A stretch of 42,503 nt of DNA from Trueperaceae bacterium. GTDB lineage: Bacteria; Deinococcota; Deinococci; Deinococcales; Trueperaceae. Below the pieces are notes generated by a model. It was not told the DNA's origin, did not search any database, and saw nothing but the letters and a program-made list of their open reading frames with translations. This document shows, piece by piece, positions 22,808 through 27,552 of the stretch. Where the stretch lies: positions 1-42,503 of the forward strand of contig JACFNR010000020.1 of the NCBI GenBank assembly GCA_019454765.1, in the 5' to 3' direction. The position numbers and the translations under genes are program-made. Numbering within the stretch: position 1 is the stretch's first letter; every line of letters begins with the position of its first letter.

Positions 22808-23767
22808 ATGCGTACGTTCGTCCGTGGTGTCTCGACGCTCCTGTTGGCGCTGGCCGTCGGTGCGGCCCTCGCCGCCCCGCCCGCCAGCCTGCGGATCATG
22901 GCCCCGGCCTCGCCCGGTGGCGGCTGGGACGGCACCTCCCGCGCCATGCAGTCCGCGCTGCAGGAGGCGGGCATCGTCAAGTCGGTGGAGGTCTTCAACG
23001 TCCCCGGCGCCGGCGGGACCATCGGCTTGGCGCAGTTGGCCACGGCCGAGAAGGGCAAGGACGACATCCTGATGATGATGGGCCTCGTGATGGTGGGTGC
23101 CATCCTCAGCAACGACGCCCCCGTCACCCTGGCGCAGACCACGCCCATCGCGCGGCTGACCGCCGAGTACGAGGTCATCGTCGTGCCGGCCAACTCGCCC
23201 CTCAAGACGCTCGCCGACCTGGTGGCCGCCCTGAAGGCCGACCCCGGCGCCGTCTCGTGGGCCGGCGGCTCGGCGGGCGGCACCGACCATATCCTGGTCG
23301 GCCTCTTCGCCAAGGCGGTCGGCGTCGACCCGAAGGCCATCAACTACATCGCCTTCTCTGGCGGCGGCGAGGCGCTCGCGTCCATCCTCGGTGGCCAGGT
23401 GACGGCCGGCGTGTCGGGCTACTCGGAGTGGGCCGGCCAGATCGAGGCGGGCGACCTGCGCGTCCTGGCGATCTCATCGCCCGAGCGGCAGCCCGGCATC
23501 GACGCCCCCACCATGCGTGAGGGGGGCGTGGACCTCGACCTCGCCAACTGGCGCGGCGTGGTCGCTCCTCCGGGCATCAGCGACGCCGCCAGGGACGCTC
23601 TCGTGAGCGCCATCGACGCCATGGTGGCGAGCGACGCCTGGGCGGCCAAGCTCGAGCAGTTCGGGTGGACGAGCGCCTACATGGGCGGCGACGCCTTCGC
23701 CGACTACCTCGTCAACGAGGACGCGCGCGTCACCGAGATCCTCAAAGACATAGGCCTCGTCGACTGA
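22808..23767 (+). CDS. tctC: Tripartite tricarboxylate transporter substrate-binding protein
   Basis: A 319-residue periplasmic protein of the Bug/TctC family. Seen: a signal peptide ([20 protein letters not shown]), the first-loop motif [17 protein letters not shown] that binds the ligand's carboxylate, the family segment [14 protein letters not shown] and the late [11 protein letters not shown]. Start at the ATG 22808 with GAGGTG 5 nt upstream; the long upstream frame is antisense to the glycosidase and rejected. It is followed 5 nt later by tctB and then tctA, the full TTT importer, which uses an ion gradient rather than ATP. Ligands in the family are citrate and other carboxylates. The specific one is unknown. 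Confidence 0.93.
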
Positions 23768-23772
23768 GCGAA

Positions 23773-24276
23773 GTGCCGGCCGACGAGCCCGCCCCGCCGA
23801 GCCGGGTCTCCTGGGGCGACCTGCTGGTCGCCCTGGGGGTGCTCGGCCTCGGCGCCTTCTTCCTCCACGGCGCCACCGTCATCAGGGTTCTGCCGAGTTA
23901 CGCCCGGGTGGGTCCGCGCTTCTTCCCGTTCGCGGTGGCGGGCGCGCTCCTCGCCTGCGGCGCCGTGCTCGCCATCTTGGCGCTCTCGGGCCGGCGGGGC
24001 CTGCCCGAGGACTCGGAGGACGCGGACGCGGAGGCGCCCACCGACTGGCGGGTGCTCGCCGTGATCGGCGCCGCGCTCGTGTTGGACCTGTTCCTGATCG
24101 AGCCCGCGGGCTTCGTGCTCTCCTCCACCCTCCTGTTCTGGGGGGTAGCGCTAGGCTTCGGCGACAGGCGCCCCCTTCGCACGATCCCCATCGGCTTCGT
24201 GCTGGCGGCCGGCGTCTACCTCGCCTTCACGCGGCTGTTGGGGCTCACGCTGCCGGCCGGGATCCTGCCCCTATGA
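23773..24276 (+). CDS. tctB: Tripartite tricarboxylate transporter small membrane subunit
   Basis: A 167-residue membrane protein with four hydrophobic segments ([53 protein letters not shown] and the pair after [12 protein letters not shown]), the normal TctB pattern, including the [10 protein letters not shown] loop. I use the GTG at 23773-23775, 5 nt after the tctC stop; the Shine-Dalgarno is weak and the start is the least certain part. The acidic linker [13 protein letters not shown] separates the two helix pairs. TctB is the small integral subunit that partners TctA. Confidence 0.88.
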
Positions 24277-24297
24277 GGGACCCGTCCGGTCGCGCGC

Positions 24298-24372
24298 GCC
24301 GCTTGTCGGCGCGCCGCTTGCCGGCGCGCTGCTTTCCGGCGCGCTGCTTTCCGGCGCGCCGCTTTCCGGCGC
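24298..24372. repeat. 15-bp tandem minisatellite, five copies
   Basis: Five contiguous 15-bp units of the form GCYGCTTKYCGGCGC fill half of the 145-nt gap between tctB and tctA. Units 3 and 4 are identical, units 1, 2 and 5 differ at one to three positions, and a partial sixth unit follows. The CCGGCGCG / CGCGCCG parts let neighbouring units pair, so the transcript could fold into several hairpins. Copy number is likely to vary between strains. Confidence 0.9.
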
Positions 24373-24421
24373 GCCGCGGCCGCGTGCCCCGCCGTCGCTC
24401 GGCGCGGTCGCGGGAGGGCGC

Positions 24422-25933
24422 ATGGACACGCTGACCGCGCTCCTGCACGGCTTCAGCATCGCGCTCACCTGGCAGAACCTGCTGTGGGCGCTCGCCGGCG
24501 TGACGCTCGGCACGATGGTGGGCATCCTGCCAGGCATCGGCCCGGCGCTTACGGTCGCGCTGCTCCTCCCCGTCACCTACAACCTCGACCCGGTCGCCAG
24601 CTTCATCATGTTCGCGGGCATCTACTACGGCGGCATGTACGGCGGCTCCACCACCTCCATCCTCCTGAACACGCCGGGCGAGTCGGCCTCCATCATCACG
24701 GCCATCGAGGGGAACCAGATGGCGCGGCGGGGGCGTGGCGCCGCGGCCCTCGCCACGGCCGCCATCGGGTCGTTCGTGGCCGGCACCCTCGCCACGGCGG
24801 CGCTCACCTTCGTGGCGCCCGTGATGGTGCGGCTCGGCTTGGCGTTCGGGCCGGCGGACTACTTCGCCCTGATGGTCCTCGCCTTCACGACCGTCACGGC
24901 GGTGCTCGGGTCGTCGCTCGTGCGCGGCCTCACGAGCCTGCTGTTCGGCATCGGCCTCGGCATGGTCGGCATCGACCTGCAGAGCGGCCAGGCGCGCTAC
25001 ACGCTCGGCAGCCTGGAACTGCTCGATGGCATAAGCGTCATCACGGTGGCGGTGGGGCTCTTCGCCGTGGGCGAGACGCTCTACGTGGCGTCGCGGCTCC
25101 GCCGCACCCAGCAGGACGTGGAGGCCATCAAGGGGTCCGTCTGGATGAGTCGCGAGGAGTGGGCGCGGTCGTGGCGGCCCTGGCTGCGCGGCGCGCTCCT
25201 CGGCTTCCCCCTTGGGAGCCTGCCCGCCGGCGGGGCCGAGATCCCGACGTTCCTCAGCTACAGCCTCGAGAAGCGCCTGAGCAAGCACAAGGAGGAGTTC
25301 GGCAAGGGCGCCATCGAGGGGGTGGCGGGGCCGGAGGCGGCCAACAACGCCGCGGCGGCCGGCGTCCTCGTGCCGCTGCTCACCCTCGGCATCCCCACGT
25401 CGGCGACGGCCGCCATCATGCTGGCGGCGTTCCAGCAGTTCGGCCTGCAACCGGGCCCGCTCCTGTTCCAGAACGCGCCGGGCCTCGTGTGGGGCCTCAT
25501 CGCCAGCCTCTACGTCGGCAACGCCATGCTGCTCGTGCTCAACCTGCCGCTGGTCGGCATGTGGGTCAGGCTGTTGACCATCCCGCGGCCGCTCCTCTAC
25601 GCGGGCATCCTGCTGTTCGCCACGCTGGGGGTGTACAGCCTCGCCAACTCCGTCGTCGACCTGATCACCCTCTACGCCATCGGCCTCGTGGGCTTCCTGA
25701 TGCGGCGCTTCGGTTTCCCGGTGGCGCCGGCGGTGATCGGCATGATCCTCGGACCGTTGGCGGAGCAGCAGTTCAGGCGCGCGCTCGCCATCAGCCAGGG
25801 CGATTACGCCGTCTTCGTGGCGCGGCCCCTATCGCTGAGCCTCCTCGTCGTTGCCGCCCTGGCGCTGGTCGTCCCCGTGATCCTCGACGCGCGCGTGAAG
25901 CGGCGGCAACGCCTGCGGGAGCTCGACGACTAG
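24422..25933 (+). CDS. tctA: Tripartite tricarboxylate transporter large membrane subunit
   Basis: A 503-residue polytopic carrier with about 12 TM segments. Seen: the N-terminal [19 protein letters not shown] and [19 protein letters not shown], the latter being the TctA signature of the ion/substrate pathway, and its internal repeat in the second half ([20 protein letters not shown]). Start at the ATG 24422 behind GGGAGGG. It completes the tctC-tctB-tctA importer, though the 15-bp repeat array separates it from tctB by 145 nt, an unusual gap for this operon. Confidence 0.95.
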
Positions 25934-25950: not shown

Positions 25951-26265
25951 TCAGGCGACGAGGCGCAGCCCCGCGATGCAGGCGACGAGCCCGGCGAGGA
26001 GGGCGGCCTTGGCCCACGAGAACGGCTCGTTGCCGCTGAGCATGGCGAACGCCACCGCCACGCCCGCGCCTACGCCCACCCACACGGCGTAGGAGGTGCC
26101 GGTGGGCAGCGACCTCATGGCGTAGGCTAGGCCCCCCATGCTCACGGCCAGGGCGGCGAGGAAGACGAGGCTTGGTACGGGCCGCGTGAGGCCGGCCGAG
26201 CGGCCGAGGGCGGTGGCCCAGACGGCCTCGAACAACCCGGAGACGATGAGGACGATCCACGCCAT
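25951..26265 (-). CDS. gdx: SMR-family guanidinium exporter (Gdx/SugE)
   Basis: A 104-residue four-TM small multidrug resistance protein. Its sequence tracks E. coli SugE/Gdx closely: an MAWIVLIVSGLFEAVW start with the essential Glu13, MRSLPTGTSYAVWVGVGA in the middle, and a final IAGLRL helix. Gdx proteins exchange guanidinium for protons as dual-topology dimers. Start at the ATG 26263-26265 with GGAGGTG just upstream. The leader carries a guanidine-III riboswitch (26280-26319), which fixes the physiological role independently of homology. It is convergent with tctA and unrelated to it. Confidence 0.95.
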   Translation of the reverse strand: MAWIVLIVSGLFEAVWATALGRSAGLTRPVPSLVFLAALAVSMGGLAYAMRSLPTGTSYAVWVGVGAGVAVAFAMLSGNEPFSWAKAALLAGLVACIAGLRLVA

Positions 26266-26279
26266 GAGGCACCTCCATG

Positions 26280-26319
26280 GCGACGTCTTGTCGTTACCGG
26301 GTACGTCGCGCTCGTCCGG
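26280..26319 (-). ncRNA. Guanidine-III riboswitch (ykkC-III class)
   Basis: On the minus strand the 40-nt element opens CCGGACGAG, has helix arms GCGACGT and ACGTCGC (7 bp, perfect), a central ACCCGGT whose CCGG can pair with the 5' CCGG as a pseudoknot, and the conserved ACAAGACG. From memory it matches the crystallised Thermobifida fusca guanidine-III aptamer almost position for position, with a compensatory base-pair change in the helix. It ends only a few nt before the GGAGG of the gdx gene, so ligand binding should control translation initiation (switch on with guanidine). Confidence 0.9.
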
Positions 26320-26407
26320 GACCGGGTGGCCATGGGGCGCGCCCTCCGGGGCGGCCACCCCACCTGGTCGAGGTCGGATGCTAGCACGCCCGCCCACGGC
26401 GCCCCGG

Positions 26408-27517
26408 TCAGGCGGGCTTCAGCACCTGCGTGCGGCGCGTCAGGCGCGCCACGAGGTCGTCCCTGAGGGTCACTCCCGTGCCGGGGCCCTCCGGCACCGT
26501 CTGCACGCCGTTCACGGCCTCGAGCGGCTGCTCGACGATGTCCTCGGTCCAGTAGCGGCTGGCGCTCGAGGTGTCGCCGGGAAGCGTGAAGTTCTCGAGG
26601 GTGCTCACGTGCAGGTTGTGGGCGCGGCCCACGCCGCTCTCGAGCATGCCGCCGCACCAGACGGGCGCCCCGAAGGTCCTGGCCACGTCGTGGACGGCCC
26701 GGGCCGCGAGCAGGCCGCGGACGCGGCCCGTCTTGACGTTGATGACGCGGCCGGCGCCGATGGCGAGGCCCTTGCGCGCGTCCTCGGGCGAGTGGACGCT
26801 CTCGTCGAGGCAGATGGCCGTGCTCAGTTGCGCCTGCAACTCGGCGTGGTCGACGAGGTCGTCGTAGGCCAGCGGCTGCTCGATGTAGGTGAGCCGCAGG
26901 TCGTCGAGTTCGAGCAGGCGGGGGGCGTCGTTCAGGCGGTAGGCGCTGTTGGCGTCGACGGTCAGCTCGATGTCGGGGAGGGCGGCGCGCACGGCGGCCA
27001 CCGGCTCCACGTCCCAACCCGGCTCGATCTTGAGCTTGACGCGCCGGTAGCCGAGCGCGGCGTTGTGGCGCGCCAGGTCGACCGTCTCCTCGATGGAATC
27101 CTGGATGCCGAGCGAGATGCCCACGGGGATGGGCCGCAGCCGCCCGCCCAGGAGCTGCCACAGCGGCACGCCGAGCGCGCGGGCCTGCAGGTCCCAGAAC
27201 GCCATCTCCACGGCGGCGACGGCCATGTTGTGGCCGCGCACGTAGCGCAGGGCGTGGAGGAGTTCGGCGGGGGTCGCGAAGTCGTGACCCACCAGGGTGG
27301 GGGCGATGAAGTCGCTGATCACGTGCCAGGCGGTCTCCACCGTCTCGTAGGAGTAGCCGGGGAACTCGCCGGCGGTGCACTCTGCCATCCCGGTCAGCCC
27401 CCCGGACTGGACCGACACGAGCATGATGCGCCGGTCGCGCTCGACCCCGAACGAGGTGCGGAACGGGAACTTGAGGCGCATGGCCACTTCGCGGAGCTCG
27501 ATGCGGTCGATCTTCAT
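26408..27517 (-). CDS. Enolase-superfamily N-acylamino-acid racemase / o-succinylbenzoate synthase-like enzyme
   Basis: A 369-residue MLE-subgroup enzyme. Seen: the capping domain (residues 1-125, with the mobile loop FRTSFGVERDR) and the barrel residues: Lys161-x-Lys163 in KLKIEPG, metal ligands Asp188 (VDAN), Glu213 (IEQPL) and Asp238 (LDES), and Lys262 (NVKTGR). These positions coincide with the two catalytic lysines and three ligands of the Amycolatopsis NSAR/OSBS enzyme. No menaquinone genes are nearby. It follows an RpiR gene by 35 nt and lies divergent from a peptide importer with hydrolases, so racemisation of N-acyl (for example N-succinyl) amino acids is favoured over menaquinone synthesis. 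Start at the ATG 27515-27517. Confidence 0.88.
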   Translation of the reverse strand: MKIDRIELREVAMRLKFPFRTSFGVERDRRIMLVSVQSGGLTGMAECTAGEFPGYSYETVETAWHVISDFIAPTLVGHDFATPAELLHALRYVRGHNMAVAAVEMAFWDLQARALGVPLWQLLGGRLRPIPVGISLGIQDSIEETVDLARHNAALGYRRVKLKIEPGWDVEPVAAVRAALPDIELTVDANSAYRLNDAPRLLELDDLRLTYIEQPLAYDDLVDHAELQAQLSTAICLDESVHSPEDARKGLAIGAGRVINVKTGRVRGLLAARAVHDVARTFGAPVWCGGMLESGVGRAHNLHVSTLENFTLPGDTSSASRYWTEDIVEQPLEAVNGVQTVPEGPGTGVTLRDDLVARLTRRTQVLKPA

Positions 27518-27552
27518 GGTCGTCCTATCTCCCGTCTGGGCGCGGGGTGCCC

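Follow-up and report, generated by a model that had tools for sequence, protein, structure and literature searches.

The guanidine-III riboswitch of T. fusca (RF01763; structure 5NWQ, PMC5696562) combines a pseudoknot, a helix P2, a pocket made up of C6, G7 and G17 and a J strand of 10 nt, and it is placed directly before the ribosome-binding site of an exporter gene. Translational control has been proposed for the class (PMC5696562, PMC12186494). A described transporter of the corresponding kind is Gdx-Clo (PDB 6WK5/6WK8), an SMR guanidinium/H+ antiporter in which W16 is Gdx-specific and separates Gdx from Qac proteins (PMC7695847). The range of guanidine-III, given as mostly actinobacteria and proteobacteria in a first-pass annotation of the DNA studied here, is mainly Actinobacteria (PMC12186494), and the present genome belongs to Deinococcota. 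We describe a guanidine-III element and its exporter gene from this genome, located in a stretch of 42,503 nt that was analyzed as a whole (the window).

A guanidine-III aptamer directly precedes a gdx gene

The assignment to the ykkC-III class, made in the first-pass annotation from sequence inspection, was confirmed by the Rfam covariance model. RF01763 (Guanidine-III) matched positions 26336-26277 of the minus strand with 53.8 bits (E 1.6e-8; gathering cut-off, 36 bits). This was the sole Rfam match in the window at the gathering threshold and the only RF01763 match in the whole 2.9-Mb genome, in which neither guanidine-I nor guanidine-II elements were found. The segment from 26319 to 25951 (minus strand) spans exactly the region from C1 of a 41-nt-type guanidine-III core to the stop codon of gdx, and it contains the following features.

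26280..26319, minus strand: guanidine-III aptamer core, an H-type pseudoknot of 40 nt (RF01763, shuffles, P2 covariation)
25951..26265, minus strand: gdx, encoding a sugE-type SMR protein of 104 aa, predicted guanidinium exporter (PF00893, NCBIfam, 6wk5/6wk8 alignment, contact residues)

Numbered after the T. fusca structure (PMC5696562), the core consists of C1 to A8 (CCGGACGA), a 2-base third strand (GC), the 5' strand of P2 (GCGACGU), ACCCGG, the J strand (UAACGACAAG) and the 3' strand of P2 (ACGUCGC), and it includes ACAAGACG. The conserved blocks ACGA, GUACCCGG and GACAAGACG were all present, alongside the CCGG/CCGG pseudoknot strands and P2, in which seven of seven pairs are standard. 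A search for this conserved-block pattern gave a single match in the window and no match in 100 shuffled sequences. The guanidinium-contact bases C6, G7 and G17 are all there when the sequence is compared with PMC5696562, and the J strand has 10 nt as in T. fusca. The core is one base shorter than the 41 nt of T. fusca, the difference lying in the third strand of P2.

Another difference from T. fusca is pair 15-38, which is C-G there and A-U here. The first-pass annotation had read this as a compensating change, and rightly so, since across 76 aptamers the pair switches among standard pairs (CG in 54, AU in 12, UA in 2 and GU in 1, with 7 nonstandard). Both sides of pairs 16-37 and 14-39 vary too. 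We also looked for regular base-triple covariation of third-strand positions 9 and 10 with P2, but this was rejected because no consistent rule emerged.

The downstream gene had been described as a SugE/Gdx gene keeping Glu13, and E13 is indeed present in a protein that matches PF00893 with 62 bits. The best NCBIfam model was SugE NF008512 (87.1 bits, under its 126-bit cut-off), an equivalog whose name refers to the quaternary-ammonium transporter SugE and which is not as such a definition of Gdx. Residues 1-102 aligned full-length to the PDB 6wk5/6wk8 family (SMR, Gdx-Clo kind; E 9e-19), and E13, W16, S42, Y59 and W62 are conserved, while R101 and a general divergence set the protein apart from Gdx-Clo. 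Judged by these residues, the product is a Gdx-type SMR transporter, and guanidinium is its predicted substrate.

The gene lies downstream of an enolase-superfamily gene (menC-type, 26408-27535) on the same strand and is probably monocistronic. It converges with a TctA gene (24422-25933), and a scan found no terminator-like site between the two gene ends. TctB and TctA, genes of a tripartite tricarboxylate transporter, occupy 23665-25933 of the plus strand and end 17 nt from the gdx stop codon; upstream of them, a likely TctC-type binding protein was spotted by eye only.

A predicted long hairpin abuts the 5' end of the aptamer

Upstream of the core, the leader contains three predicted features.

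26378..26386, minus strand: candidate extended -10 TGCTAGCAT of the gdx promoter, without a good -35
26370..26373, minus strand: putative transcription start at the base of the 5' hairpin, 5-8 nt 3' of the candidate -10
26320..26369, minus strand: 5' hairpin with a long stem, GACC...GGUC, that abuts C1 of the core (folding and comparison)

Most of 76 related leaders contain a TA...T sequence resembling a -10 element at a distance of 28-39 nt upstream of C1; in three congeners it occupies -43 to -47. From its placement in these leaders, in the congeners and in the window, the transcript probably starts at the foot of the hairpin. Since a strict sigma-70 scan returned no promoter at TGCTAGCAT, the promoter is proposed by comparison with related leaders.

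The 50-nt hairpin (26369-26320) has a minimum free energy of -31.8 kcal/mol (z -2.2), a value reached by 6 of 200 shuffles. T. fusca differs from the window in this long 5' hairpin, whereas stems were found at the same site in congeners (GACCGC/GCGGUC in L004 and L005, GGCCGC/GCGGUC in L008), where they abut C1 and differ in sequence from the stem of the window. A hairpin abutting C1 is common to many of the 76 leaders, including many actinobacterial ones; when contiguous stems were scored strictly, 16 of the 76 went beyond their own shuffles at the 5% level. The 40-nt element with both helices and the CCGG/CCGG pseudoknot drawn in the first-pass annotation is confirmed. The upstream helix of the Rfam alignment, with four pairs (GGCC/GGUC), is probably misplaced, and folding suggests that the longer 50-nt stem closes there instead.

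Guanidine-III is sporadic in Deinococcota

RF01763 was found in 11 of the 111 genomes of the phylum, Deinobacterium chartae being the sole control genome with a match, and Gdx-like SMR matches were found in 53 of the 111. The Gdx of the window is unlike most others of the phylum and is closest to actinobacterial Gdx (65-71% identity). In the tree, its type grouped with actinobacterial Gdx, apart from the other deinococcal Gdx, on a branch supported at 100/100, but in an AU test a single clade of all Gdx of the phylum was not rejected (p 0.29). Transfer of the gdx of this genus from Actinobacteria is therefore likely, though not proven. Actinobacterial guanidine-III and gdx units (L012-L091), which include the closest Gdx proteins, have the same gene order and spacing as the window. 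Overall, the sequence evidence indicates that the unit is genuine and probably functional: a known sensor type and, in that sense, an ordinary further example, found in a phylum where guanidine-III is rare.

Apparent riboswitch losses were seen in the gdx leaders of L098, L105, L108 and L112. The congener L098 retains a 3' relic of the riboswitch and L105 a degenerate copy, L108 has kept the promoter-like sequence and lacks the riboswitch, and L112 is possibly leaderless.

Other loci had an altered arrangement. In L103 (1330-1465), the J strand of a guanidine-III core that lies 5' of gdx is interrupted by an insert of about 100 nt. The insert contains a 22-bp tandem repeat in 3.8 copies and is able to form a hairpin with GACC/GGUC as its closing pairs; this split core gave no Rfam match. 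In L006 (1501-1900), an intact guanidine-III element precedes a gdx with a broken frame, in two overlapping pieces in different frames, which is either a pseudogene or a sequencing error. L096, from another genus of the family, carries an actinobacterial-type gdx (73% identical) without a riboswitch and beside a tRNA gene, perhaps a separate transfer.

The start codon may be sequestered by a hairpin that shares bases with P2

The first-pass annotation had placed the aptamer a few nucleotides before GGAGG, and the Shine-Dalgarno (SD) sequence does begin 3 nt after P2, compared with 16 nt in T. fusca. The ATG of gdx is at 26265 (minus strand), 14 nt after P2. A hairpin over the SD and AUG that overlaps P2 again distinguishes the window from T. 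fusca.

26272..26276, minus strand: Shine-Dalgarno GGAGG, 3 nt after P2 and 6 nt before ATG
26260..26282, minus strand: candidate OFF hairpin CGCCAUGGAGGUGCCUCAUGGCG, in which the AUG and some of the SD are paired and C39-G40-C41 of P2 take part

The CGCCAUGGAGGUGCCUCAUGGCG hairpin was calculated at -11.0 kcal/mol (z -2.2), a modest edge over shuffles, 6 of 200 (3%) being as low. Once P2 has formed, about -3.4 kcal/mol of the start-site hairpin remains. P2 plus this residual hairpin amounts to -13.0 kcal/mol versus -11.7 kcal/mol for the OFF hairpin, so that, with the pseudoknot excluded from the energies, the two are mutually exclusive and nearly isoenergetic folds. Similar SD/AUG hairpins (-10.1 kcal/mol) were found in L004, L005 and L008, whose other leader parts differ, while that of L009 (-6.0 kcal/mol) is no clear counterpart. 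Because the bases are mostly fixed by the SD and the start codon, this conservation is weak evidence.

We then modeled apo and holo accessibility in 75 complete leaders, with chimeric leaders as a control. For the window, the local hairpin model favored release of the start site; in the fuller folding model, formation of the bound aptamer opened the AUG (0.02 to 0.49) and closed the SD (0.54 to 0.18). Over the 75 leaders, mean SD accessibility fell on aptamer formation from 0.58 to 0.42, as it did in the chimeras, and mean AUG accessibility rose slightly from 0.42 to 0.51, within the chimera range. A class-wide unmasking of the SD by the aptamer is thus unsupported, the real leaders doing no better than the chimeric ones. 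For this reason, competition between P2 and the AUG hairpin is put forward as a candidate mechanism for this genus only. The translational control that the first-pass annotation had deduced from the tight spacing is plausible and matches the proposal in the literature (PMC5696562, PMC12186494), but given the class-wide result it is something that we still infer.

We favor the following model as the likely one, in which the aptamer, exporter, spacing and covariation are read from the sequence and the start site and the OFF and ON folds are predicted. Transcription would start just 5' of the long hairpin adjoining the pseudoknot. In the absence of guanidine, bases at the 3' end of P2 would pair with codons 1-3, giving a leader hairpin in which the AUG is sequestered along with some of the SD. 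Guanidinium bound between G7 and G17 would fix the pseudoknot and P2. The OFF hairpin, having lost the three pairs at its base, would weaken from about -11.7 to -3.4 kcal/mol and allow ribosomes to start; the Gdx made would then export guanidinium against protons. With the sensor directly before the ribosome site of the pump gene, the pump would therefore be made only when guanidine, which is toxic, is present. The same general switching logic was proposed by Huang et al. 2017 (PMC5696562). We are nearly certain of the identity of the element and of its acting as a guanidine-dependent ON switch for gdx, and control is very probably post-transcriptional rather than exerted through a terminator, while the particular exchange between P2 and the AUG hairpin has slightly less than an even chance of being correct.

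Alternatively, guanidine could act mainly through the stability of the mRNA. The locked pseudoknot, together with the 5'-terminal hairpin, would block 5'-end-dependent scanning by a putative RNase E-like nuclease, and a longer-lived mRNA would yield more Gdx. Stabilization of mRNA has been reported for guanidine-III (Richards and Belasco 2021, as summarized in PMC12186494), a stable hairpin next to the aptamer is predicted to form the very 5' end of the transcript, and the 75 leaders gave no class-wide sign of SD unmasking. An SD located only 3 nt from P2, however, suggests an effect at the level of the ribosome as well, and we regard stabilization as the less probable account, though one to be taken seriously.

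As to how the unit arose, the genus may have retained a guanidine-III sensor of the phylum type and exchanged its exporter gene for a gdx of the actinobacterial type, and the hairpin at the start codon, with bases in common with P2, may serve as a compact expression platform. The J strand has 10 nt in all nine scored members of the phylum, window included, whereas it has at least 11 nt in 63 of 67 scored actinobacterial aptamers and 10 nt in none; the exact form UCAnGACAAG was absent from 396 sampled actinobacterial genomes, a figure that counts the genomes sampled and not the guanidine-III carriers. A 10-nt J strand is nonetheless not exclusive to the phylum, as T. fusca has one (PMC5696562), and a chimeric origin is for this reason possible but rather doubtful. 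If this combined reading, which we consider improbable, is true, the start-codon hairpin would define an OFF state explicitly in a class for which the mechanism of switching is described as less well established.

That the riboswitch is a decayed relic, no longer sensing guanidine and leaving gdx constitutive, is very improbable. Loss is frequent in the phylum, as the degenerate or deleted leaders of L098, L105, L108 and L112 illustrate, and the window has A26 where the other eight scored members have C26; yet no ligand-contact or pseudoknot position is altered, P2 is paired along its full length and the covariance score is high, and PMC5696562 describes contacts of U25 and A27 in its text and none of position 26. 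Least probable of all is attenuation at an intrinsic terminator upstream of gdx, as used by guanidine-I and guanidine-IV riboswitches (PMC12186494), because the terminator scan was negative for the stretch from the aptamer to the gene and the gap from P2 to the start codon is only 14 nt.

In relatives, guanidine-III precedes a PF06695 gene

In two genomes of genus g4, in the same family as the window, guanidine-III elements (L010:856-919 and L011:602-665; 43.4 and 41.7 bits) precede not an SMR gene but a gene for a PF06695 'small multi-drug export' membrane protein. Their J strand, UCAUGAAAG, is one base shorter, and C6, G7 and G17 are intact. No Gdx was detected in these genomes, which are 83-89% complete. 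In genus g14, a close PF06695 homologue is preceded by a degenerate guanidine-III element (L130:1959-2021, minus strand; 24 bits, below the cut-off). Upstream of the remaining PF06695 homologues analyzed (L131-L135), RF01763 gave no match; several of these homologues come immediately after another reading frame. Our literature search found no paper joining PF06695 with guanidine riboswitches. The PF06695 protein of L010 and L011 is thus a candidate new guanidinium exporter, and guanidine-III before PF06695 without a detected Gdx could indicate a second kind of guanidinium exporter.

For the switching step of guanidine-III, which is poorly described, the locus offers a base-level model. Guanidine sensing and export extend to Deinococcota, where they are sporadic (11 of 111 genomes) and have apparently been lost several times.
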